From the NCBI RefSeq assembly GCF_001983935.1, contig NZ_CP017641.1:7862001-7926000 (forward strand): a stretch of 64,000 nucleotides of DNA, given 5' to 3'. Positions 1,315 to 32,674 of this stretch are shown piece after piece. The notes beneath the pieces are model-generated. The model worked only from the letters and a program-made list of their open reading frames with translations, was not told the origin of the DNA and did not search any database. The DNA is from Fuerstiella marisgermanici (lineage in GTDB: Bacteria > Planctomycetota > Planctomycetia > Planctomycetales > Planctomycetaceae). Both the position numbers and the translations under genes were made by a program. The first letter of the stretch is position 1, and the number at the start of each line of letters is the position of its first letter.

Positions 1315-1499
1315 TTGCGTTCCCGTTCTGCAGGTTGATGGCTAAGATGAAGTCTCTATTCGTCGTTTGGGCCAAGTTGTCCTGGTGGTAAATCATATGC
1401 CGATGTCGCCTTCAGCGAAGTGCCGACAGGAGGGCCTTTCTACCGGAAGGGGCTTTCGGCTCAGGATGTCGAGTCTATTACAGGCGGATTGATCCGAGT

Positions 1500-2089: not shown

Positions 2090-5000
2090 ATGAATCGATT
2101 CTTGTGCCCTTTGTTGTTCGTTGTCTTGGCCCTGAATGTAACGAATTCGGCACCGGCTGCGGACGACACCGACATCCTTCGGAGAGAGAACCTGGTCGCG
2201 TGGTGCATCGTTCCGTTTGATGCGGCCAAACGCGGTCCCGCAGAACGAGCGGTCATGTTGAAAGAGCTGGGGATTACTTGCTGCGCCTACGACTGGCGAG
2301 CCGAGCATGTGCCCACCTTTGAACAGGAGATTATTGAGTACAAGAAGCACGGGATCGAATTCTTCGCCTTCTGGAGCGTCCACGATGACGCATTCAAGCT
2401 GTTCGAGAAGTACGACCTGCACCCGCAAATCTGGCAGATGATGAGTGACCCGGGCGAAGGTGATCAGGCAGCGAAAGTCGAGAAAGCAGTTCAGGCCATG
2501 CTGCCGCTTGCCAACCGAACGGCTCAATTGGGCTGTAAGCTGGGCCTCTACAATCACGGTGGCTGGAGTGGCGAACCCGTGAATCTGGTTGCCGTTTGCC
2601 GGCGGCTGAGGGAACTTGGGCAGAAGCATGTCGGCATCGTCTACAACTTTCATCACGGCCATGGCCATATCAGCGATTGGCACAAATCCTTCGCCATGAT
2701 GAAGCCGTATCTGCATTGTCTGAATCTGAACGGCATGAATGACCAAGCCAAGCCAAAGATTCTGGGCATCGGCAAGGGGGCTCACGAACTGCAGATGATC
2801 CGCACAGTCGTAGAAAGCGACTACGACGGGCGGATCGGAATTCTTGATCATCGCAACGATCTGGATGCGCGCGAATCGCTACAGGAAAATCGCGACGGGC
2901 TGGAACTCGTGAGAAAGCAGCTCGCGAAGCAATCCGAAACGGCGGCGGTTGGAAGCCCAGGCCACGGAATTCCATACAACGCAGCCCACGTCGCGGAACT
3001 CGTGACTGACGCCGCAAAGCACGGCGATGTAAAACGTGGCGCGGCGGTGTTTGCCAATGCGAAGTTGGCGTGTTTGTCGTGCCATCAAATAGGTCAGCAC
3101 GGCGGCACAGTCGGGCCGGATCTGTTGAAGGTGCTGAAGGAACGTAAGCCGAATCACATTGTCGAATCAGTGTTGTGGCCGAAACGCGACGTTAAACCGG
3201 AATTCGCCGTGTGGCAGGTGGTGACAACGTCCGGTCGCGTGGTCAGCGGATATCGTGAGAAGTCTAAGGTTGAAGGCTCAGGGGTGAGGGCCAACAAGGA
3301 CAGTGGCGATGTCGTCGTTCTCTGCGATCCGGCAACTGGCAAGCGAACCCCGATTGCTCAAACCGACGTGGAAGAAATGGTCGAAGGAAGCACGGTGATG
3401 CCCAGCGGCTTGACGGCTGCTATGTCGCGGCAACAGCAGCTCGACCTGTTCCGTTTTCTGAATGAACTCGGCGAAGTCTCAGACGTACCGCCCGCAGTGA
3501 AACACGTGATCGCACATTCCAGCATGCATGGCCCGGCGACGTTTCCGATCGTCGCTGCCCCGATGGCTCCCGAACGCTGGTCGAACGCCACTCATCCTGT
3601 CACTCGAGACCGCCTGTACGATTTCTACACGCGGCAGGCAGAATACTTCCGATCGCAGCATCATGTTCCGATGCTGTTGGCCCCGTTTCCTGGCATGGAC
3701 GGTGGCCAGCAGGGGCATTGGGGCAATCAAAACGAAGACACATGGCGTGATGGCCGCTGGAACGAAACGAAGCTCGGTTCCGTGCAGTCGGGCGTGCTGC
3801 ATGCGAACGGAAAAGCGATCGCCCGAGCCGTCTGTGTGCGACTCGGCGACGAAGGACAGATGTCGGCCTGCTTTAACCCGGACACATTAACCTACGAAGC
3901 CGTGTGGCAGGACGGCTTCGTTAAGTTCGATGCCGTGCGTCATGGATTCGTGGGCGGCTTGCGATTGGACGGTGAGCTAGTCGCTATGGAACCACAGTCA
4001 CCGCCGGACGAGCCGTTTCGCTATCACGGATTCTACCGGCACGGCGACCGCGTGATTTTCGCCTACCGTATCGGCGATGTGGAGTATCTGGATTCGCCGT
4101 GGGTCGAAGACGGGAAGTTTTCACGCGAACGAGCTTCGATCGAACAGCATTCGCTGCGACACGTTTTGGGTGGTGGTCCGCCTCAGTCGCCGATTGAAAT
4201 CGAAACGAAAATTATTCCCGGCAACGGACGGCCGTACGCCATCGATACGATCGAACTGCCCTACGACAATCCATGGAATGCTCAACTGTTTTGCGGCGGC
4301 CACGATTTCCTGCCGAATGGCGACGCACTGGTTTGCACGATGCAGGGAGATGTGTGGCGCGTTAGCGGCCTGGATTCCGGTTCTGATGAAGTTGGCAGGG
4401 CGACATGGCGACGGTTCGCGTCCGGCCTGCATCACGCGTTGGGGTTGGTCGTGGCGGACGACGGTATCTACGTACAATGCCGCGACCAGTTGACTCGCCT
4501 AACCGACCTCAACAATGACGGCGAAGCGGACTTCTACGAATGCTTCAGCAACGCCTTCAAGACGTCGCCCGCTGGGCACGATTTCATTTGCGGATTGCAG
4601 CGAGATACCGCTGGCAACTTCTACACGGCGTCCGGCAACCAGGGCTTGCTACGCATTTCTCCCGACGGTCAGGACGTCAAAGTTCTGGCGACCGGTTTTC
4701 GCAATCCGGACGGCTTGGGCATTCTGCCGGACGGCACGTTGACCGTCCCCGTGTCTGAAGGCGAATGGACTCCGGCGTCGGCCATCAATGCCGTTCGGCG
4801 AAATGTGGCTGCAGCTTCCAGTGTCGGAGATTCCCCAACGGCTAACGCTCACGGCCAAGGCGATCAACCACCTCACTTTGGCTACCGAGGCCCGCGTGAC
4901 GGCCAGCCTCCTGAACTGCCGCTGGCCTACCTGCCTCGCGCATTGGACAACTCAAGTGGCGGCCAGGCGTTTGTTAACAGCGATGAATTCGGACCGCTGA

Positions 5001-6103
5001 AAGACCAGCTGCTGCACTTTTCGTTCGGTGGTGGTACATGGTTTGTCGTGCTGCGAGACGAAGTGAACGGCCAGGCTCAGGGGGCCTTGGTCCCGATGAC
5101 GGGTGACTTTCTGTCGGGCGTTCATCGAGGTCGCTTCCATCCGAAGGACGGGCAACTTTACGTGACAGGCATGGCAGGCTGGGGTTCGTACACACCAGAC
5201 GATGGCTGCTTTCAGCGAGTTCGGTTCACCGGCGACAAGTTCCAAATGCCGGTCGGCTTTCATCTTCACGAAAACGGAGTGAAAATCGACTTCGACCAGC
5301 CGCTGGACCAATCGATTGCAGGCGACATCGGTCGCCAGTTCGCTCAATGCTGGAACTACCGTTACAGCGGCGCGTATGGATCGGTTGAATTTTCCACGAC
5401 TCATCCGGGCGTCGCCGGGCACGATCCGTTGGCAATCACGTCGGCTCATGTTTTGAAGGGTGGCAAGTCGCTGTTTCTTGAGATTCCGGATCTGCAGCCT
5501 GTGAGTCAATTGCATCTGCGACTGCACACCAACAAAGACGAAGCCGTTTCGTACAATCCGGCTGGCGGTGGACACGATTTGTTCATCACCGCGCATGAAC
5601 TCGATAAGCCCTTCACAGACTTCCCCGGGTACGTGCCGCGACAAAAGACGATTGCTGCTCACCCGCTGCTGACGGATCTGGCTATGAATGCAGAACGGGT
5701 TCCCAACCCGTGGGCGAAGCCCATCAAGGGAGCTCGCCCCATCAACGTCGCGACTGGCAAAAACTTGTCGTATGCGACAAAGGAATTCACTGTTAAAGCT
5801 GGCGAGGCGCTAGCGTTCACGTTGGAGAACCCGGACGTCGTGCCGCACAACTGGGTGTTGGTTCAGCCCGGCGCGTTGCAAAGTGTTGGCGAACTCGGGA
5901 ATCAGCTCATCGCCAATCCGAAAGCGTACGCTCGTCAGTATGTTCCGGAATCGAACCATGTCATTGCTCACACCGACATCGTGTCACCCGGCGAAAAACA
6001 AACGATTTACTTCGCGGCCCCGGAAACGCCGGGTCACTATCCGTTTCTGTGTACGTTTCCGGGGCATTGGATGGTTATGAATGGTGTGATGGTGGTTGAA
6101 TGA
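2090..6103 (+). CDS. Giant secreted multidomain protein: TIM barrel, cytochrome c, beta-propeller, azurin-like cupredoxin
   Basis: 1337 residues from the ATG at 2090. This start is chosen because it opens a signal peptide (MNRFLCPLLFVVLALNV); the frame is open further upstream but without signal-like sequence. Residues about 25-270 look like a sugar-phosphate-isomerase-type TIM barrel. A planctomycete heme-binding domain follows with C328-L-S-C331-H332. Residues about 450-690 contain a YDFYTRQAEYFRSQ-type domain, and about 690-1080 a glucose/sorbosone-dehydrogenase-like propeller (NPDGLGILPDG). The C-terminus is a type-1 copper domain: VPHNW supplies His1253 and CTFPGHWMVM supplies Cys1321, His1326 and Met1330, in the azurin spacing. 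The likely role is periplasmic sugar oxidation with internal electron transfer from propeller to heme to copper. That role is inference; the motifs are seen. Confidence 0.88.
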   Translation: MNRFLCPLLFVVLALNVTNSAPAADDTDILRRENLVAWCIVPFDAAKRGPAERAVMLKELGITCCAYDWRAEHVPTFEQEIIEYKKHGIEFFAFWSVHDDAFKLFEKYDLHPQIWQMMSDPGEGDQAAKVEKAVQAMLPLANRTAQLGCKLGLYNHGGWSGEPVNLVAVCRRLRELGQKHVGIVYNFHHGHGHISDWHKSFAMMKPYLHCLNLNGMNDQAKPKILGIGKGAHELQMIRTVVESDYDGRIGILDHRNDLDARESLQENRDGLELVRKQLAKQSETAAVGSPGHGIPYNAAHVAELVTDAAKHGDVKRGAAVFANAKLACLSCHQIGQHGGTVGPDLLKVLKERKPNHIVESVLWPKRDVKPEFAVWQVVTTSGRVVSGYREKSKVEGSGVRANKDSGDVVVLCDPATGKRTPIAQTDVEEMVEGSTVMPSGLTAAMSRQQQLDLFRFLNELGEVSDVPPAVKHVIAHSSMHGPATFPIVAAPMAPERWSNATHPVTRDRLYDFYTRQAEYFRSQHHVPMLLAPFPGMDGGQQGHWGNQNEDTWRDGRWNETKLGSVQSGVLHANGKAIARAVCVRLGDEGQMSACFNPDTLTYEAVWQDGFVKFDAVRHGFVGGLRLDGELVAMEPQSPPDEPFRYHGFYRHGDRVIFAYRIGDVEYLDSPWVEDGKFSRERASIEQHSLRHVLGGGPPQSPIEIETKIIPGNGRPYAIDTIELPYDNPWNAQLFCGGHDFLPNGDALVCTMQGDVWRVSGLDSGSDEVGRATWRRFASGLHHALGLVVADDGIYVQCRDQLTRLTDLNNDGEADFYECFSNAFKTSPAGHDFICGLQRDTAGNFYTASGNQGLLRISPDGQDVKVLATGFRNPDGLGILPDGTLTVPVSEGEWTPASAINAVRRNVAAASSVGDSPTANAHGQGDQPPHFGYRGPRDGQPPELPLAYLPRALDNSSGGQAFVNSDEFGPLKDQLLHFSFGGGTWFVVLRDEVNGQAQGALVPMTGDFLSGVHRGRFHPKDGQLYVTGMAGWGSYTPDDGCFQRVRFTGDKFQMPVGFHLHENGVKIDFDQPLDQSIAGDIGRQFAQCWNYRYSGAYGSVEFSTTHPGVAGHDPLAITSAHVLKGGKSLFLEIPDLQPVSQLHLRLHTNKDEAVSYNPAGGGHDLFITAHELDKPFTDFPGYVPRQKTIAAHPLLTDLAMNAERVPNPWAKPIKGARPINVATGKNLSYATKEFTVKAGEALAFTLENPDVVPHNWVLVQPGALQSVGELGNQLIANPKAYARQYVPESNHVIAHTDIVSPGEKQTIYFAAPETPGHYPFLCTFPGHWMVMNGVMVVE

Positions 6104-9018: not shown

Positions 9019-9516
9019 ATGAAACAGGCGAAGCCCAAACAGCCGCCACAAGCCATTGGCTGGCGCGAATGGCTAGCGTTGCCTGCCCTTGGCATCCAGG
9101 CAATCAAAGCGAAGATCGACACAGGCGCGCGTTCCAGCTGCCTGCACGCGTTTTCAATTAAGCAGTTTGAGCGGGACGACCGGACCTGGGTTCGCTTTAA
9201 GGTTCACCCCATTCAGCGCGATTCGAAGACGACGATGGAGGTGGAAGCCGAAGTTCTGGAATTCCGCAAGGTGCGAAGTTCCAGCGGTCACGCAAACGTT
9301 CGCCCGGTGATTCTCACGCCCATCACGTGGCTGGATCAGTCGTGGAACGTCGAAATCACTTTGGCTTCGCGAGACGAAATGGGATTTCGCATGCTATTGG
9401 GACGAGAAGCAGTGCGAGGCCGGTTTGTGGTCGATGCGGGAAATTCCTGGTATGGCGGCAAGCCGGAACAGGCGGTTCGGAAGAAGAAGTCTAACAGAAA
9501 AAAGGACGTTTCATGA
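9019..9516 (+). CDS. RimK-associated retropepsin-like / putative ATP-dependent zinc protease (PF05618 type)
   Basis: 165 residues. The family signature KAKIDTGARSSCLHA lies at about residues 30-44 and gives the D-T-G-A catalytic aspartate motif of retropepsin-like folds. The strand FRMLLGREAVRGRFVVDAG near residue 115-133 is equally typical. The family is annotated either as an ATP-dependent zinc protease or as an aspartic protease and is repeatedly found beside rimK. In Pseudomonas a member (RimB) removes or trims glutamate tails added by RimK. Here the stop overlaps the rimK start by 4 bp (ATGA), implying coupled translation. The lysine-rich C-terminus (KKKSNRKK) is unremarkable. Confidence 0.85.
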   Translation: MKQAKPKQPPQAIGWREWLALPALGIQAIKAKIDTGARSSCLHAFSIKQFERDDRTWVRFKVHPIQRDSKTTMEVEAEVLEFRKVRSSSGHANVRPVILTPITWLDQSWNVEITLASRDEMGFRMLLGREAVRGRFVVDAGNSWYGGKPEQAVRKKKSNRKKDVS

Positions 9517-10730
9517 AACTCGCCATCCTCTCCCGCAGCCTGGGTTGTTACAGCACAAGACGACTTAAAGAAGCCGCTCTGCAGCGCGGCCACAAAGTCA
9601 AAGTGTTGAATACCATCCGGTTTTCCATCGATCTCGAACAGGGAAGCCCGGACCTGTACTTTCGGTCCAAGCAGCTTTCCAACTACGACGCCGTTCTGCC
9701 GAGGATTGGTGCCTCCATCACGTACTTCGGTACCGCTGTTGTTCGCCAGTTCGAACAGATGGATGTCTTTTGCGCGAACTCGTCGGCCGGCATCACGAAC
9801 TCACGCGACAAGCTTCGTAGTCTGCAGATTTTGAGCAAGCATCATATCGGAATTCCGGAAACAACGTTCGTCCGCGACCGGAAAGACGTGTTGCCGTCTA
9901 TCGAACGGATCGGCGGTGCGCCCGTTATTATCAAGCTGCTGCAGGGGACTCAGGGCGTCGGTGTGATTCTTGCCGACTCGGCCAAGGTTGCAGAAGCGAT
10001 CATTGAAACGTTGCAAAGCACGCAGCAGAACGTCCTGGTGCAGAAATTCGTTGCCGAAAGCAAGGGCCGCGACATTCGAGCATTCGTGGTGGGCGATCAG
10101 GTGGTCGGTGCGATGCGGCGAGTTGCTCAGGGATCAGAATTCCGCAGCAATGTGCATCGCGGTGGGCATACCGAACGAGTGGAGCTGGACTCAACGTATA
10201 CCGAAACGGCTGTTCGAGCGGCTCAGATCATGGGGCTGCGAGTTGCCGGTGTGGACATGCTGGAAGGCAACGATGGGCCTCAAGTGATGGAGGTCAATTC
10301 TTCACCAGGGCTTGAAGGCATCGAAGGCTGTACTCAACTGGACATCGCTGGAGCCGTCATCGATTACATTGCGGCTCAGGTGGACTTTCCGGAAGTCGAC
10401 ATTCGGCAACGGTTGACGGTGAGTCGTGGCTACGGGGTTGCCGAATTGCACATCCCTGAAGGTTCGGACTACGTGGGAAAACGCATTGCGGATTCCGGAT
10501 TGCACGAACAGGACATCAACGTCCTGACGTTGTATCGCGGTACAACAGTGATCCCGAATCCAAAGCATTCACGCGAACTGGAAGCGACCGATCGGTTGCT
10601 GTGCTTCGGAAAACTGGAATCCATGAAGCGACTTATCCCCGAAAAAACGCGGAAGCGTCGAAAGCCAAAAGTTAAAAAACTGCCGGATGACGCTCACCCG
10701 ACAGAGCCTTCCGGATCCGGTTCAAACTAA
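9513..10730 (+). CDS. rimK: RimK-type ATP-grasp glutamate ligase fused to a TrkA-C (RCK-C) domain
   Basis: 405 residues. Residues 1-295 are a complete RimK: the N-terminal MKLAILSRS start, VIIKLLQGTQGVGVIL for ATP binding, VLVQKFVAES, GRDIRAFVVGDQVVGAM, and the Mg-binding QVMEVNSSPGLEGIE. Such ligases add glutamates to the C-terminus of ribosomal protein S6 or make related peptide bonds. Unlike the usual RimK of about 300 residues, it carries a further domain at about 305-385 (YGVAELHIPEGSDYVGKRI, then LTLYRGTTVIPNP and LEATDRLLCFG), which has the TrkA-C fold pattern. In K+ transporters this domain binds ligands, including cyclic di-AMP in some proteins. Regulation of ligation by such a ligand is inference. 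Confidence 0.88.
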   Translation: MKLAILSRSLGCYSTRRLKEAALQRGHKVKVLNTIRFSIDLEQGSPDLYFRSKQLSNYDAVLPRIGASITYFGTAVVRQFEQMDVFCANSSAGITNSRDKLRSLQILSKHHIGIPETTFVRDRKDVLPSIERIGGAPVIIKLLQGTQGVGVILADSAKVAEAIIETLQSTQQNVLVQKFVAESKGRDIRAFVVGDQVVGAMRRVAQGSEFRSNVHRGGHTERVELDSTYTETAVRAAQIMGLRVAGVDMLEGNDGPQVMEVNSSPGLEGIEGCTQLDIAGAVIDYIAAQVDFPEVDIRQRLTVSRGYGVAELHIPEGSDYVGKRIADSGLHEQDINVLTLYRGTTVIPNPKHSRELEATDRLLCFGKLESMKRLIPEKTRKRRKPKVKKLPDDAHPTEPSGSGSN

Positions 10731-11907
10731 CTTTCGTACGTTGGCCTGGAAGGGCCAGTGTGCACATTTCGATGTTTTAGGTAGACAGACAACAGTGGCT
10801 TCACCCCTGCTACAGCGTAAATCGGTCGACGACTGGAACGGCACTAAAGTTCCCCCCGGTGAATCTCAGGACATCGATCTGGCGATCACTGAGAGTTACA
10901 GCGGCATGACGCTGCGGATTCCTCTGCACGTGCGTCGAGGTAAAGAAGAAGGCCCAACCGTATTCGTTTCTGCCGCGTTACACGGTGACGAAATCAACGG
11001 CACGGGAGCCGTCCGGTCACTGTTGATGGCACCGGACTTTGAAGTGACCCGTGGCAGCGTGATTCTGATTCCGGTTTTGAATCTGCTGGCCTTCGATCGC
11101 CACTCTCGCTACCTGCCAGACCGCCGCGACCTGAACCGTTGTTTTCCAGGCACGTCGAGAGGCAGCCTGGCAAGTCGCATGGCGCGAGTCGTGTTCACGG
11201 AAATCGTGGCTCGCAGCGACTTCGGCATCGACCTGCATACGGCGGCTCTGCGGCGCACCAACTATCCGAACATCCGCGGCAATATGTCGATCCCTGCGGT
11301 GCGCACATTGGCAGAAGCTTTCGGCAGCGAATTGATCGTGAACGGAGTTGGGCCCAAACGATCATTGCGCCGTGAAGCGACGGCCGCCGGGTGTCCGACC
11401 ATCATTCTGGAAGGCGGCGAAGTCTGGAAGGTTGAACCGTCCATTGTCGAAGCGTCGGTCCGCGGCATCTGCAATGTTCTGCGGCACATGAAGATGATCG
11501 AAGGCGAACCGATCACTCCCGATTACCAGGTCGTGATTGAGGAAACGAAGTGGTTGCGTGCAGAGAGTGGCGGCTTCCTGCAGTTTCATGTAAAACCTGG
11601 CGACATCGTGAAGAAGGATCAGCCGATTTCGACTAATGCCAGTCTGCTGGGGCATGAACAAAGCGTTCTGACCGCTCCGTTTGATGCGGTCATTATTGGT
11701 ATGACGACCATTCCCGCTGTGAGTCCCGGCGAACCGATTTGCCATCTGGGCAAACTGCCCGACGGCATTCAGCCAGCCAGCCTGCGGCGACAGCGGAAAG
11801 AGGGTGACGGTATGGAGTCGCGCCTCGTCGACGAACTGGCGTCGAACGTCATGGTTGTGAAACGCAAGCCAAACGCGGAATCCGGCGAAAATGAGCTGCC
11901 CAGCTAA
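10687..11907 (+). CDS. Succinylglutamate desuccinylase/aspartoacylase (AstE/AspA) family deacylase
   Basis: 406 residues, overlapping the end of rimK by 44 bp. The zinc site of this M14-like family is visible: His and Glu of VSAALHGDEINGTGA (about residues 96-110), and the second His in FGIDLHTAALRR (about 180). The arginine-rich DRRDLNRCFPG is the substrate-carboxylate-binding segment of the family. A C-terminal barrel (HVKPGDIVKKDQPI) is also usual. The family removes acyl groups from amino acids. Its place in a protease-RimK-deacylase cluster, an arrangement seen in several phyla, points to turnover of glutamyl or N-acylated peptides made by RimK rather than arginine catabolism. Confidence 0.85.
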   Translation: MTLTRQSLPDPVQTNFRTLAWKGQCAHFDVLGRQTTVASPLLQRKSVDDWNGTKVPPGESQDIDLAITESYSGMTLRIPLHVRRGKEEGPTVFVSAALHGDEINGTGAVRSLLMAPDFEVTRGSVILIPVLNLLAFDRHSRYLPDRRDLNRCFPGTSRGSLASRMARVVFTEIVARSDFGIDLHTAALRRTNYPNIRGNMSIPAVRTLAEAFGSELIVNGVGPKRSLRREATAAGCPTIILEGGEVWKVEPSIVEASVRGICNVLRHMKMIEGEPITPDYQVVIEETKWLRAESGGFLQFHVKPGDIVKKDQPISTNASLLGHEQSVLTAPFDAVIIGMTTIPAVSPGEPICHLGKLPDGIQPASLRRQRKEGDGMESRLVDELASNVMVVKRKPNAESGENELPS

Positions 11908-12230: not shown

Positions 12231-14012
12231 ATGCAGGAACTCACACCGAAACCTGATGCCGAATCCCTCAACGACCGCGACCTTCTGCGCCGGTTCCTTT
12301 TGGATTCTGACGAAGCCGCGTTCGCGGAAATTGTGCAGCGGCATCAGGGGCTGGTGATGGGGGTTTGTCGGCGAGTCATCGGCAACACGGCCGACGTTGA
12401 CGATGCGTTTCAGGCGACATTTATCGCGTTGGCTCGGCGGCCGAAACAAATTCGGAAGGCCGTTTCTCTTTCAAGCTGGTTGTACACCGTCGCATGGCGG
12501 ACCAGCGTGCGTTTGGTAAGACAACGCAGGAAGCACCCCGTGGAAGAACTCACCCAACATCCGCCCGACCGGCAATCCGAAGCGCTCGACAAAATCGCGA
12601 ACGCTCAGGACTGCGTGGTGCTGGATGAGGAACTGAATTTTCTGCCGTCGAAGTATCGTGAAGTGCTGGTGATGACGTACTTCGCAAATCAAACCAGTCA
12701 GCAAATTGCCGATCAGCTTAACGTGAGCAAAGGCACCGTCGACGGTCGCATCCGACAGGCTCGCAACATCCTGCGAGTCCGTCTGGCTCGACGCGGTGTG
12801 GCCATCGGCGTGTTGGCGGTGGCGGCCACGATGAGTACCGGTGCCAGTGCGGCGGCGTCACCGGCTCTGCTTCAATCAACTCTTCAACTGGGTGCTCAAA
12901 CACTCAGCGGTTCCGTTCCGGGAACCACCGACCTTTCCCATCTCGAACCTCTTATTCGACCGGAGACGATTATGGCCAGTTCAAAACTGATTCTTGGCAG
13001 CATGTTGTGTGCGACTGCTGTTGTGGGACTTGTGGCTGCGAACGGTGCGCCGTTGGGCATGGGCGACGATGAGTCACCGAAGGTCGAATCGGCCGTCTCG
13101 GAAGATTCGGGTGATTCGACCACCGGCGATGATCCGTTTGGTGGCGGCAGTGCTGCTGATCATTCAGTCGTGATATTAGGTGCGGCGGATGCCGCGGCGA
13201 CGAAAGTTGCGGATGCAGCAAGGGGTGCGGCAAAATTCACGCCGTATGCTGCAGACGCTCGGCCGGTTGAAAAATGGATGCACGAAGTGCTTGATAAGCC
13301 TGTCAGCGGCCTTGACTTTCAAGGAGAGGTACCGCTGTCGGAGGTTCTGGAAGTCATTGGTAGATACTTCACGAGCGAATACGGTGAGAAGGAAGGTGAA
13401 AAGTTCGCGATGGCTTTCCACGCCGACAAGGCTGAGCTGTCAATAGTGGGCCTGGATGGACTGGATGGCGTCTTGGTTTCCGACATCGATTTCGACGGAA
13501 TGACTCTTCGTAACGCGCTCAAGCTAATCTTTGACCAAACGGATGACGCCGCCAATTCCCTGGCGTCAGAGCCCCTGACGTACGTCATCAAAAATGAAGT
13601 GATGCTCGTTACGACTGTGCAGAAAGCTGAGTCTGACGATATGCTCGTCACCAGAGTCTATCATGTTGGAGAACTGCTGAATCTGGATTATGCAAACGGG
13701 CTCACAGGAGCCGGTCCCAAAGGCGGTGCAGGTTTCTTCTCCATTCCAGCGAATGCCGCACAGTTGGGCGGTGGCGATGGCGGAGCGGGAATGGACGGCG
13801 GTGGAGGCGGTCAACCCCCAACGCCACCAACTCTCGCCACGCTCGTCATGGAAATGACGTCGCCTCCCTGCCGCTGGCTGGAGCTTGATGGTGAAGGTGG
13901 AGCGATCCGCATCGTTGGCCAGACACTCGTGGTTCGCCAAACACCCAAAGGCCACGAAGAAGTTGTTCGCCTGCTGAACCTGCTTTACGAATCAGCGGTC
14001 GATCAGCAATAG
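12231..14012 (+). CDS. ECF sigma factor with C-terminal membrane and STN-like periplasmic extension
   Basis: 593 residues. Residues about 15-90 form sigma-70 region 2 (DEAAFAEIVQRHQGLVMGV, DVDDAFQATFIAL), and about 125-185 region 4 with the helix-turn-helix QTSQQIADQLNVSKGTVDGR. A hydrophobic segment follows at about 190-212 and a second at 248-270 (MASSKLILGSMLCATAVVG). Residues about 300-500 resemble the short N-terminal domain of secretins and TonB-dependent transducers (LRNALKLIFDQ, YVIKNEVMLVTT), and there is a glycine-rich patch at about 515-530. Planctomycete ECF factors with such tails are known. Membrane tethering would let an envelope signal control the sigma domain. An internal ATG at 12972 has its own GGAG six bases upstream, so the tail may also be made separately. 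Confidence 0.87.
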   Translation: MQELTPKPDAESLNDRDLLRRFLLDSDEAAFAEIVQRHQGLVMGVCRRVIGNTADVDDAFQATFIALARRPKQIRKAVSLSSWLYTVAWRTSVRLVRQRRKHPVEELTQHPPDRQSEALDKIANAQDCVVLDEELNFLPSKYREVLVMTYFANQTSQQIADQLNVSKGTVDGRIRQARNILRVRLARRGVAIGVLAVAATMSTGASAAASPALLQSTLQLGAQTLSGSVPGTTDLSHLEPLIRPETIMASSKLILGSMLCATAVVGLVAANGAPLGMGDDESPKVESAVSEDSGDSTTGDDPFGGGSAADHSVVILGAADAAATKVADAARGAAKFTPYAADARPVEKWMHEVLDKPVSGLDFQGEVPLSEVLEVIGRYFTSEYGEKEGEKFAMAFHADKAELSIVGLDGLDGVLVSDIDFDGMTLRNALKLIFDQTDDAANSLASEPLTYVIKNEVMLVTTVQKAESDDMLVTRVYHVGELLNLDYANGLTGAGPKGGAGFFSIPANAAQLGGGDGGAGMDGGGGGQPPTPPTLATLVMEMTSPPCRWLELDGEGGAIRIVGQTLVVRQTPKGHEEVVRLLNLLYESAVDQQ

Positions 14013-30121: not shown

Positions 30122-32380
30122 TTACCTCCGCAGCAGGAACTCATTCGAATTCAATAGTGACCAGGCGACATCTTCCAGCCCTCGTTTTTGATGGGACTGG
30201 CCAGCGACATATGCCGACAGCGATTTGGCTTCGTCTGGCGTTGGAGGACGACTAAGAGCGGCCCAATACAATTGATCGATGATTTCGGCGTGAGGCCTTC
30301 CTGCCGCGATCATCTGGTCGATGCGATTATTCGATTGTTGCAGTAACTGGCTGACCAGTTCGCCGCTGACCATTTCAAACGTTTGAGCCAGCGTGGTTTC
30401 GTTGGTGCGTTCACATTCGCAGGTTTGCAAACGATTTGGCTTGCCGAATAGCCTGAGGAATCGGTCTCCAATTTCCGGAGGGCTGTAGCGATGGCCACCG
30501 TTGCGAACGCCCTTCAACTGTACGGCTCGAGTCCCGGCATCATGCCCTCCAAATTTGGCGGGCACATCCAGCACCTGGACGACTGCGTCCAGCGTTTGCT
30601 CTGCCGTCAGCCGCCGCAGCGAAGTTCTTGCAAAGGAGACGGTGTCGTTTGCGTTGGTGTCGTTGGGGATTGATGAGAACTGGTAAACGTTTGAATTCAT
30701 GATGACGCGCATGAGGTGTCGCACGTCGAAGTCGGCCGCGACGAACTCGTCACGCAAGCCGTTTAATAATTCCGAATTCGATGGAGGGTTTGTCGAACGG
30801 AAATCGTCGATGGGATCGATGACGCCCTGCCCCATTAGTTGAGCCCAGATGCGGTTGGCCTGAGTCACTGCGAAGCGTTCGTTCGACTTGTTGCCTAGCC
30901 ATGCCGCCAGTCGCTGTAGTCGGTCCGGTTCAGGATCACCGGCCGCCAGAACTTCGGCATCTACCAGCGATTCATCGCCCAGAAATCTCAACCCGGCCAC
31001 CTTTCCGTTTGTCGGGTTTTTGATATCTCCCTCATCCTTAATCTGCACAATCTGTTCGCCGTTGAATTCATGCTTATCACTTTTGTCGCGGCGTTTGTTC
31101 TCGACGATTTTGTAGTCGATGCGAGCGAAGAAATTCGACCAGTCGTAGTAATCGTTCTGAGTCCAGTGGTCGAACGGATGGTTGTGGCACTTGACGCACT
31201 GCAACCGCACACCGAGAAACAATTGAGCGACCGCTTCGCCACGTTCGGCCGGTTTGCGGATCGCTCGGTAGAAATTCGCAGGCGGAACTTCATACGTACT
31301 GCCGCGAGCCCCAATGATTTCGGCCGCAAACTGATTCAGCGGTTTGCCTTCCGCGACGCTCGATCGAATCCAGTTGTGGTAGACTTCGACGCCTTTTTTG
31401 TCGAGCGTTTTTTCTTCGACTCGCAGCAGGTCTGCCCAACGCAGCGTTTGGAAGTCGTTGAATTCTTCAGACGCCAGTAGCTGGTCGATCAGCTTTGACC
31501 GCTTGTCTGCGTCGGTTGAATTTGCAAACGCCTGAGCCTGTTCAATCGTCGGCAGAAGGCCCGTCAGGTCGAGGTACGCTCGCCGAAGAAACGTCGTGTC
31601 TTCGCAAAGTTCAGACGGGTTGATTTTCAGTCGCTTCAATTGAGCGAACACTGCTTCATCAATGAAGTTCTTCGGCTTTGGTGCGGCGAAAACAAAGTTT
31701 GGGCGTTCCGGCACGAACTCAATCCGCACGGGAACTTGCTGGTTCAGGTAACGCACAACGACTGTCGTCATGCCGGCTTCGTGGGCTGTTGCAACGCCTT
31801 CTGCAGAGACGGATACAAACGTTGCTGACGATTCGAACACTGCCAGGGATGTGACGTCTCGCGATGTTCCGTCAGCGAAGGTGGCTTCCGCTGTGATCTG
31901 CACAGAACGATCGGGCGCGTAAACCGTCTTGTGCGTCGGTGAAACCTTCAACGCCACCAACGCTGATGCTTGTTCCCCGTCGCCTGGTGCACCGGCGGCG
32001 ATCCATGCTCGCAGAATCTGATAGGCTTTTGATGTTTCCGAAAATCGCCGACCACCTTCGTGAGGGACGACCATTGACGGCTTTTGCAGCAGCAGGCTGT
32101 CTGCGGGGTTCAACGGTGTGACTCGCCGAGCGGCTGATTGACGAGTGAGCGTGAGGTAGTCATCGTCGGGATCCTGCCCACGCAGAGACAACTTCAACCC
32201 ACCTTTGCCGTGCGCGTTTCCGTGGCACGTGCCCTGGTTGCAGCCCGACTTCGACAACACGGCCATCACTTCGTTGCGAAAAGAAGGAGGTGATTCCTGC
32301 GCTGACGTTGGAATGGAAAGGCCCAACGTGCCTGCAAGGACCAGTCCGAGCAGTCGAACTCTGTTGCAAAAGTGAAGCAT
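30122..32380 (-). CDS. DUF1549/DUF1553 protein with Ig-like domain and Cys-His motifs
   Basis: 752 residues from the ATG at 32380, which starts a signal peptide (MLHFCNRVRLLGLVLAGTLGLSIPTSAQ); the longer frame upstream lacks one. A GCNQGTCHG motif (C47, C52-H53) and an Ig-like Big_2 segment (about 145-225, VQITAEATFADGTSRDVTS) come first. DUF1549 follows (about 240-450, LRRAYLDLTGLLPT, then LQCVKCHNHPFDHW with a CxxCH), and DUF1553 ends the protein (about 490-745, NRIWAQLMGQG, RRLTAEQTLDAVVQVL). It is exported and probably acts with the DUF1501 protein, whose gene begins 6 bp downstream. Heme binding at CxxCH is plausible but unproven; the first motif has the unusual C-x4-C-H spacing. Confidence 0.92.
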   Translation of the reverse strand: MLHFCNRVRLLGLVLAGTLGLSIPTSAQESPPSFRNEVMAVLSKSGCNQGTCHGNAHGKGGLKLSLRGQDPDDDYLTLTRQSAARRVTPLNPADSLLLQKPSMVVPHEGGRRFSETSKAYQILRAWIAAGAPGDGEQASALVALKVSPTHKTVYAPDRSVQITAEATFADGTSRDVTSLAVFESSATFVSVSAEGVATAHEAGMTTVVVRYLNQQVPVRIEFVPERPNFVFAAPKPKNFIDEAVFAQLKRLKINPSELCEDTTFLRRAYLDLTGLLPTIEQAQAFANSTDADKRSKLIDQLLASEEFNDFQTLRWADLLRVEEKTLDKKGVEVYHNWIRSSVAEGKPLNQFAAEIIGARGSTYEVPPANFYRAIRKPAERGEAVAQLFLGVRLQCVKCHNHPFDHWTQNDYYDWSNFFARIDYKIVENKRRDKSDKHEFNGEQIVQIKDEGDIKNPTNGKVAGLRFLGDESLVDAEVLAAGDPEPDRLQRLAAWLGNKSNERFAVTQANRIWAQLMGQGVIDPIDDFRSTNPPSNSELLNGLRDEFVAADFDVRHLMRVIMNSNVYQFSSIPNDTNANDTVSFARTSLRRLTAEQTLDAVVQVLDVPAKFGGHDAGTRAVQLKGVRNGGHRYSPPEIGDRFLRLFGKPNRLQTCECERTNETTLAQTFEMVSGELVSQLLQQSNNRIDQMIAAGRPHAEIIDQLYWAALSRPPTPDEAKSLSAYVAGQSHQKRGLEDVAWSLLNSNEFLLRR

Positions 32381-32674
32381 AGGATTAGCGGGAGATGCGG
32401 GATTTGGCAGGACGAAATGGCAGGGCCAACATTGTATGGCTGAATGCTGGTCAACTCCAGTACGACTGAGATTATTAGGCTCTTCTGGGCCATTCGGTTT
32501 TCGAGACGTCAGCTTAAGGAACGGCTGCCTCCTCGGCTGCGAGTCGCTTTGTCGTTCAAGCAATGATATGGATCCTCACTTGACAGTCGCCGGATTCGGC
32601 TGTTTGATTGGCACGTTCGTCGACAGCAAGTTGTCGGTTTTTATTTGGTTTGTTTTGAGCGCGAAGGAAGTCTC

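Follow-up and report, generated by a model that had tools for sequence, protein, structure and literature searches.

In Fuerstiella marisgermanici, a gene of 1337 codons encodes one polypeptide that joins a TIM barrel, a heme c domain, a six-bladed propeller and a copper-binding cupredoxin, and this arrangement of four modules on one chain is real. The gene lies in a 64,000-nucleotide stretch (contig NZ_CP017641.1, positions 7,862,001 to 7,926,000), hereafter called the window. The protein belongs to a recurring planctomycete family in which many relatives share the arrangement. From the computed modules, folds and conserved ligands we infer export, a carbohydrate substrate, catalysis and the path and direction of electrons. 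The resulting proposal, to which we give a tentative probability of roughly 45%, is that of a secreted, presumably periplasmic redox protein that would act on a carbohydrate or sugar derivative and whose heme and copper would pass electrons to a respiratory partner.

The window's list of open reading frames gives the gene as one frame from an ATG at 2090 to a stop at 6103 on the forward strand; an alternative GTG at 1955 would only lengthen the frame ahead of the apparent signal peptide. The protein was folded in two parts, the barrel (residues 25-292; predicted local distance difference test (pLDDT) 94.1, predicted template modelling score (pTM) 0.90) and the core (residues 291-1337; pLDDT 87.4, pTM 0.84). 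A chance arrangement was ruled out because the core of this 1337-codon frame is conserved in about one third of the 249 genomes of the class that were sampled (60 full-length matches above 480 bits and another 21 that are split). An initial annotation of this DNA had already described a single polypeptide with four modules; each of them is now supported beyond its motif, and the core of that interpretation is sound as a proposal. Two regions had been missed, namely DUF6797 (residues 593-668) and, separating the propeller from the copper domain, some 150 beta-rich residues. The DUF6797 region has no PDB relative by sequence, and within the paper library searched there was neither a mention of DUF6797 nor a description of the four-module architecture.

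Relatives were collected by a pattern-based scan of GTDB genomes with six patterns, including the peptide FPGHWMVM, which yielded 80 loci. Nearly all are from planctomycetes; L071 is labelled Verrucomicrobiales, and the titles of some metagenome-assembled genomes look doubtful (L060, Akkermansia; L012 and L085, Kuenenia). Three architectures were found: barrel, heme and core as in the window protein (about 1330-1390 residues), a longer form (about 1500-1600) in which some 200 further residues separate the barrel from the heme, and a form without the barrel (about 1050-1150). Among 72 aligned members, 27 have the first architecture, 16 carry the insert, 25 lack the barrel and four have it in a separate upstream frame. 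The insert is a lectin-like Laminin_G_3 domain in L013, the sole insert-bearing member of its kind that was scanned, and in L071. The family is a variant among the known planctomycete multi-domain heme proteins with the barrel as a regular module, and the remark in the initial annotation that such proteins do not usually have a barrel is not supported, as 43 of the 72 members of this pattern-selected sample carry it in frame.

On a tree of the core, the architecture labels change 20 times compared with a mean of 35 after shuffling, and because of these many changes modules have been gained or lost repeatedly. In the window's own genus, five loci (L113 and L116-L119) show the order DUF6797, propeller, copper, heme, and heme and cupredoxin stay paired in such permuted relatives. 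The window's own genome holds 44 full or partial matches to the gene. It also encodes L179, which has the order heme-DUF6797-LamG-propeller and no copper domain, and L180, a copper-heme protein in which no propeller was matched. Four modules do stand on one chain, as had been claimed, but since they are split, lost or permuted among relatives it is doubtful that the protein is self-contained.

With FPGHWMVM among its patterns, the scan was biased towards members that keep the copper site. In a whole-protein search, 25 frames from 58 relatives reach the C-terminus and all 25 have the four copper ligands, although in some the neighbouring residues differ, as in CTYPGHSRVM. When the propeller and the stretch following it were used as query against the 249 class genomes and the best 30 matches were examined, all 29 with a complete C-terminus keep copper and all 30 keep CxxCH; an MP motif was found in 27 of the 30 by pattern and in the other three by eye. 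Thus, no homologue reaching the C-terminus was found to lack the Cys, His and Met ligands, whereas the barrel is fused, split or absent and the heme is absent in two members, so that not every homologue keeps all four modules.

The heme c domain exceeds the curated cut-off of TIGR02603 in NCBIfam (73.8 bits against 68.15, E-value 1.3e-20); TIGR02604 (PVC-type CxxCH protein) reaches 33.6 bits, below its cut-off of 122.2. Beyond the CLSCH motif that had been noticed before, both axial ligands were found. The heme residues C328, C331, H332 and M437 are invariant in the 72 rows of alignment A1, and the heme profile hits Kustd1711 (PDB 7zs0) in its C-terminal heme domain at 1.4e-24. M437 aligns with M292 of Kustd1711, the position that is Met in 7zs0, Cys in 7zs1 (M292C) and His in 7zs2 (M292H), and H332 and M437 form the same His/Met axial pair as in Kustd1711, invariant and aligned. 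In that protein the potential of the His/Met-coordinated heme is about +350 mV, and it is a calcium close to the heme, bound in 7zs0 by main-chain carbonyls and a heme propionate, that raises it (PMC11791136).

The C-terminal domain matches Copper-bind (PF00127) at 48.1 bits (gathering cut-off 21.2, E-value 1.7e-12) and stays below the equivalog cut-off of azurin proper (TIGR02695, 50.6 bits against 105.1). H1253, C1321, H1326 and M1330 are invariant in the 72 rows of alignment A1, and this His/Cys/His/Met set stands at cupredoxin spacing when aligned with auracyanin and azurin. Judged from the sequence, a type-1 copper site is probable, which agrees with the initial annotation, and both the azurin-like ligand loop and a first His 68 residues before the Cys (H1253 to C1321) were confirmed. 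The residue before this His is Pro (PHN), as is the pattern in plastocyanin; azurin has Gly there. Nitrous oxide reductase, with a propeller and a cupredoxin, gave the top Foldseek rows and was rejected, as the rmsd (root-mean-square deviation) of 23-30 A reflects a shared order only and the copper domain here has one Cys instead of the CuA pair.

By sequence the propeller matches Piru_Ver_Nterm (2.7e-8) and DUF7133 (3e-4), both below cut-off, and an hmmsearch profile search of the PDB retrieved mainly NHL-type repeats. Its best fold matches are the pyrroloquinoline quinone (PQQ) sugar dehydrogenases 3a9g (Z 24.3, rmsd 3.2 over 289 residues, model residues 713-1049) and 2ism (Z 24.2, rmsd 2.9 over 276 residues). 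A dehydrogenase-like propeller had been proposed before, and it withstood modelling, which retained the propeller at Z of about 24 to these enzymes. H830 (A3 H123), R871-N872 (A3 R164-N165) and H1012-R1013 (A3 H305-R306) are invariant, and we take these motifs to resemble the catalytic His, the RN pair and the RxR of soluble glucose dehydrogenase (sGDH).

The barrel matches UlaE, IolI, sugar isomerases and epimerases and the Planctopirus protein 4ovx at Z of about 20. PF01261 (AP_endonuc_2) scores 18.2 bits on it (0.0022), below the cut-off of 31.1, which a standalone relative (L003) passes at 33.2 bits. In profile alignments, YNHGG of the barrel is aligned to ENHGG of 4ovx and VYN to the Asp-bearing strand, and in the register against 4ovx and 3wqo the canonical Glu and Asp metal ligands become Y154 and N186. 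The complete Glu/Asp/His/Glu metal site of sugar epimerases was not found in the barrel, the positions of the His and the last Glu being occupied by Asn (N212/N214) and neighbours of H254. W38, D44, W115, Y154, N155, W159, N186, H188, H191, N212, N214, H254 and D259, at strand ends, are invariant in 50 rows that include a standalone paralogue with 37% identity. Because these residues are invariant despite the replaced metal ligands, we infer a live pocket with altered chemistry.

In L048 and L075, barrel and core are separate neighbouring genes, each with its own signal-like N-terminus. Standalone barrels adjoin sulfatases, a gluconolactonase-like gene or PSCyt pairs and PSCyt-type heme genes. 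These surroundings, seen in a handful of loci only, are in line with the role in carbohydrate metabolism that PMC5615132 suggests for PSCyt proteins.

According to the proposed mechanism, the protein would be exported to the periplasm via its apparent Sec signal. The propeller would be the likely substrate or catalytic platform, and the barrel, its pocket re-tooled, could be a second sugar-handling site. Two high-potential one-electron carriers, the type-1 copper and the heme c with its His/Met ligands, would move electrons between the propeller platform and a respiratory partner, either soluble or in the membrane; the copper domain would be the end at which this partner docks and electrons leave. 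A sugar-linked redox protein is suggested because two one-electron carriers and two sugar-enzyme folds occur on one exported chain. The redox part is favoured since all eight cofactor ligands are invariant, also in searches unbiased by motif, and the link to sugars because the propeller and barrel folds are those of sugar dehydrogenases and isomerases and Laminin_G_3 inserts occur. The initial annotation had spoken of a periplasmic oxidase or electron wire. The apparent export signal fits the periplasmic location and a flow of electrons between heme and copper is conceivable, but "oxidase" found no support, as no oxygen-reducing site was seen.

Several observations weigh against this proposal. 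SMP-30-like lactonases, DFPase and non-enzymatic NHL domains match the propeller at Z 20-22. Pfam gives no GSDH (PF07995) match up to E 1, and the profile alignment of the propeller with GSDH proteins, in which the position of sGDH Lys377 reads Gly, is very weak (hhalign probability 2.3%). The complete genome has no pqqC match and its pqqE matches lie far below cut-off; that the search works is seen from G015, the only one of 29 genomes searched that has both genes, which lie side by side there and serve as positive control. The genome nevertheless contains ten sugar-dehydrogenase-like PF07995 matches despite the lack of pqqC. Two members of Verrucomicrobia type (L060:6896-10861 and L071:6854-10894) are without the CxxCH heme and keep the barrel, the lectin-like insert, the propeller core and copper. 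Finally, no conserved operon partner was found near the window gene, which shares no neighbour with the other loci among the 80.

The protein might instead be a true PQQ-dependent sugar dehydrogenase, a quinohemo-copper enzyme that scavenges external PQQ and whose heme c and copper are wired to the respiratory chain. The lack of pqqC in a complete genome, by a search validated in G015, and the Gly that a weak alignment gives at the position of sGDH Lys377 make this somewhat unlikely, even though the top fold matches are PQQ sugar dehydrogenases and H830, R871-N872 and H1012-R1013 are invariant. Such an enzyme would parallel in function the fungal pyranose dehydrogenase with heme b and PQQ. In its favour, fungal CcSDH binds PQQ though several of the bacterial PQQ contacts are missing (PMC4133262). 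Conversely, propeller and barrel might have no redox function at all and be binding, lactonase-like or isomerase-like modules, with heme and copper used only as relay or for docking to respiratory partners. The almost equally close lactonase, DFPase and NHL matches, the replaced metal ligands of the barrel and the heme that is dispensable in two members would fit, but the expected barrel pocket and the propeller hold many invariant polar residues, beyond what a scaffold needs, and we regard this explanation as doubtful.

Lytic polysaccharide monooxygenases (LPMOs) receive electrons from cellobiose dehydrogenase and from the PQQ pyranose dehydrogenase of fungi, and a similar module logic is seen here, with a cytochrome, a sugar-dehydrogenase fold and, in relatives, a lectin-like domain. 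However, no AA10 LPMO (PF03067), the one LPMO family searched for, was found in the window's genome, and such a donor role is very improbable.

A frame switch was found in the genus of G010, in which barrel and heme-core lie in different frames in three genomes (L042, L039 and L101). The switch occurs in all three species at an identical TAAAAAAAAAC, whose A9 run is the only A or T run of at least 8 in each of the three loci (10.8, 17.9 and 4.3 kb). The open core frame runs over 941-1017 residues and has no ATG, GTG or TTG before CxxCH, with CxxCH at residue 40 and the first GTG at residue 70-80, so that it lacks a signal peptide of its own. As the N-terminal regions of the core are 80-85% identical between the three species, the frame has been kept. 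One extra A, or a -1 shift, would join the barrel and core frames, and no such A run is present in the in-frame members or the window gene. The simplest reading of these sequences suggests programmed transcriptional slippage or -1 frameshifting, which would yield the barrel alone and the full fusion; alternatively, phase variation could be at work or the assemblies could share an error. Taken further, the family might be a class of secreted enzymes that is widespread in planctomycetes, has not been described before and oxidises or cleaves glycans in a new way. In it, heme c and type-1 copper would be hard-wired to a sugar barrel with a non-canonical pocket and to a propeller that works without PQQ, and in one genus programmed slippage on A9 would control how barrel and redox part are linked. 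We consider this extended version unlikely.

Table 1. Features of the window gene (window positions) and the A9 run in three related loci.
Feature	Position	Strand	Basis or remark
Whole gene, 1337 residues, stop included	2090..6103	+	homologues align from residue ~5-30 to 1337
Apparent Sec signal peptide, residues 1-24 (MNRFLCPLLFVVLALNVTNSAPAA)	2090..2161	+	read from sequence
Xylose-isomerase-type TIM barrel, residues 25-292	2162..2965	+	model, fold matches, profile alignment
Heme c domain TIGR02603, residues 312-459	3023..3466	+	1.3e-20; relative of Kustd1711, PDB 7zs0
CLSCH (residues 328-332), which attaches the heme and supplies the proximal His	3071..3085	+	C, C, H invariant 72/72
M437, distal heme ligand	3398..3400	+	invariant; aligned with M292 of Kustd1711
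DUF6797, residues 593-668, between heme and propeller	3866..4093	+	1.1e-14, above cut-off
Six-bladed propeller, residues 713-1049	4226..5236	+	folded like PQQ-dependent soluble sugar dehydrogenases
Cupredoxin, residues 1216-1337, most similar to auracyanin and azurin	5735..6100	+	Pfam and profile matches
H1253, first copper ligand, in PHNW	5846..5848	+	invariant
CTFPGHWMVM, residues 1321-1330; copper ligands C1321, H1326, M1330	6050..6079	+	invariant
Invariant A9 run at barrel/heme-core frame switch	L039:7340-7348; L042:7814-7822; L101 (reverse complement) 1475-1483		

PSCyt/DUF1549 and DUF1501 genes flank 17-20 of the 80 loci, but this is weak evidence for a partner because PSCyt2 genes number 70 in the window's own genome, or one per 127 kb. 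One of these 70, for a PSCyt2/PSD1 (DUF1549/DUF1553) protein, lies in the window (30122-32563, reverse strand). Directly upstream of the gene, at 1400-1920, an element of about 110 nucleotides with TCGTTTAACCCGTAGCCGAAGGCGCAGGCGT is present in tandem and inverted copies. Elsewhere in the window, 9019-11907 (forward strand) encodes a putative ATP-dependent zinc protease, a RimK with a TrkA_C domain and a succinylglutamate desuccinylase-like protein in a row with overlapping ends, and a sigma-70 family factor (12231-14012, forward strand) has a C-terminal extension of about 400 residues without a Pfam match.

Large secreted heme proteins, functionally uncharacterised, are very numerous in planctomycetes. 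The present family is comparatively tractable among them, with a heme domain that has a solved relative, invariant copper ligands and sugar-enzyme folds in other parts of the chain. To learn which compounds it oxidises or carries would open a first way into this dark redox proteome.

The barrel has its fold in common with UlaE, IolI and Planctopirus 4ovx, whose Glu and Asp metal ligands are replaced here, and the propeller is alike in fold to the PQQ-dependent soluble aldose sugar dehydrogenases 3a9g and 2ism, without a family match at the sequence level. Auracyanins and azurins have the same type-1 ligand set and a CxFPGHxxxM-type loop; they are small free electron carriers, whereas the copper domain here is the C-terminus of a protein of 1337 residues. 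An analogous chain of a cytochrome and a sugar-dehydrogenase fold is the pyranose dehydrogenase of Coprinopsis cinerea (heme b, PQQ propeller and CBM1; PMC4133262), although it is fungal, its heme b domain is of another kind and it has neither a copper domain nor a barrel. Kustd1711, a diheme cytochrome c of Kuenenia stuttgartiensis (7zs0), has a C-terminal domain of the same heme family, beta insertion included, but it carries two hemes and lacks the barrel, the propeller and the copper domain. The accessible text of PMC5615132 reports occasional carbohydrate-binding domains in PSCyt proteins, a feature shared with the present family, and does not describe barrel or azurin-like modules for PVC-type CxxCH and PSCyt proteins. 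With these TIGR02604/TIGR02603 proteins the window protein has in common the TIGR02603 heme domain, the planctomycete setting and the shuffling of modules.

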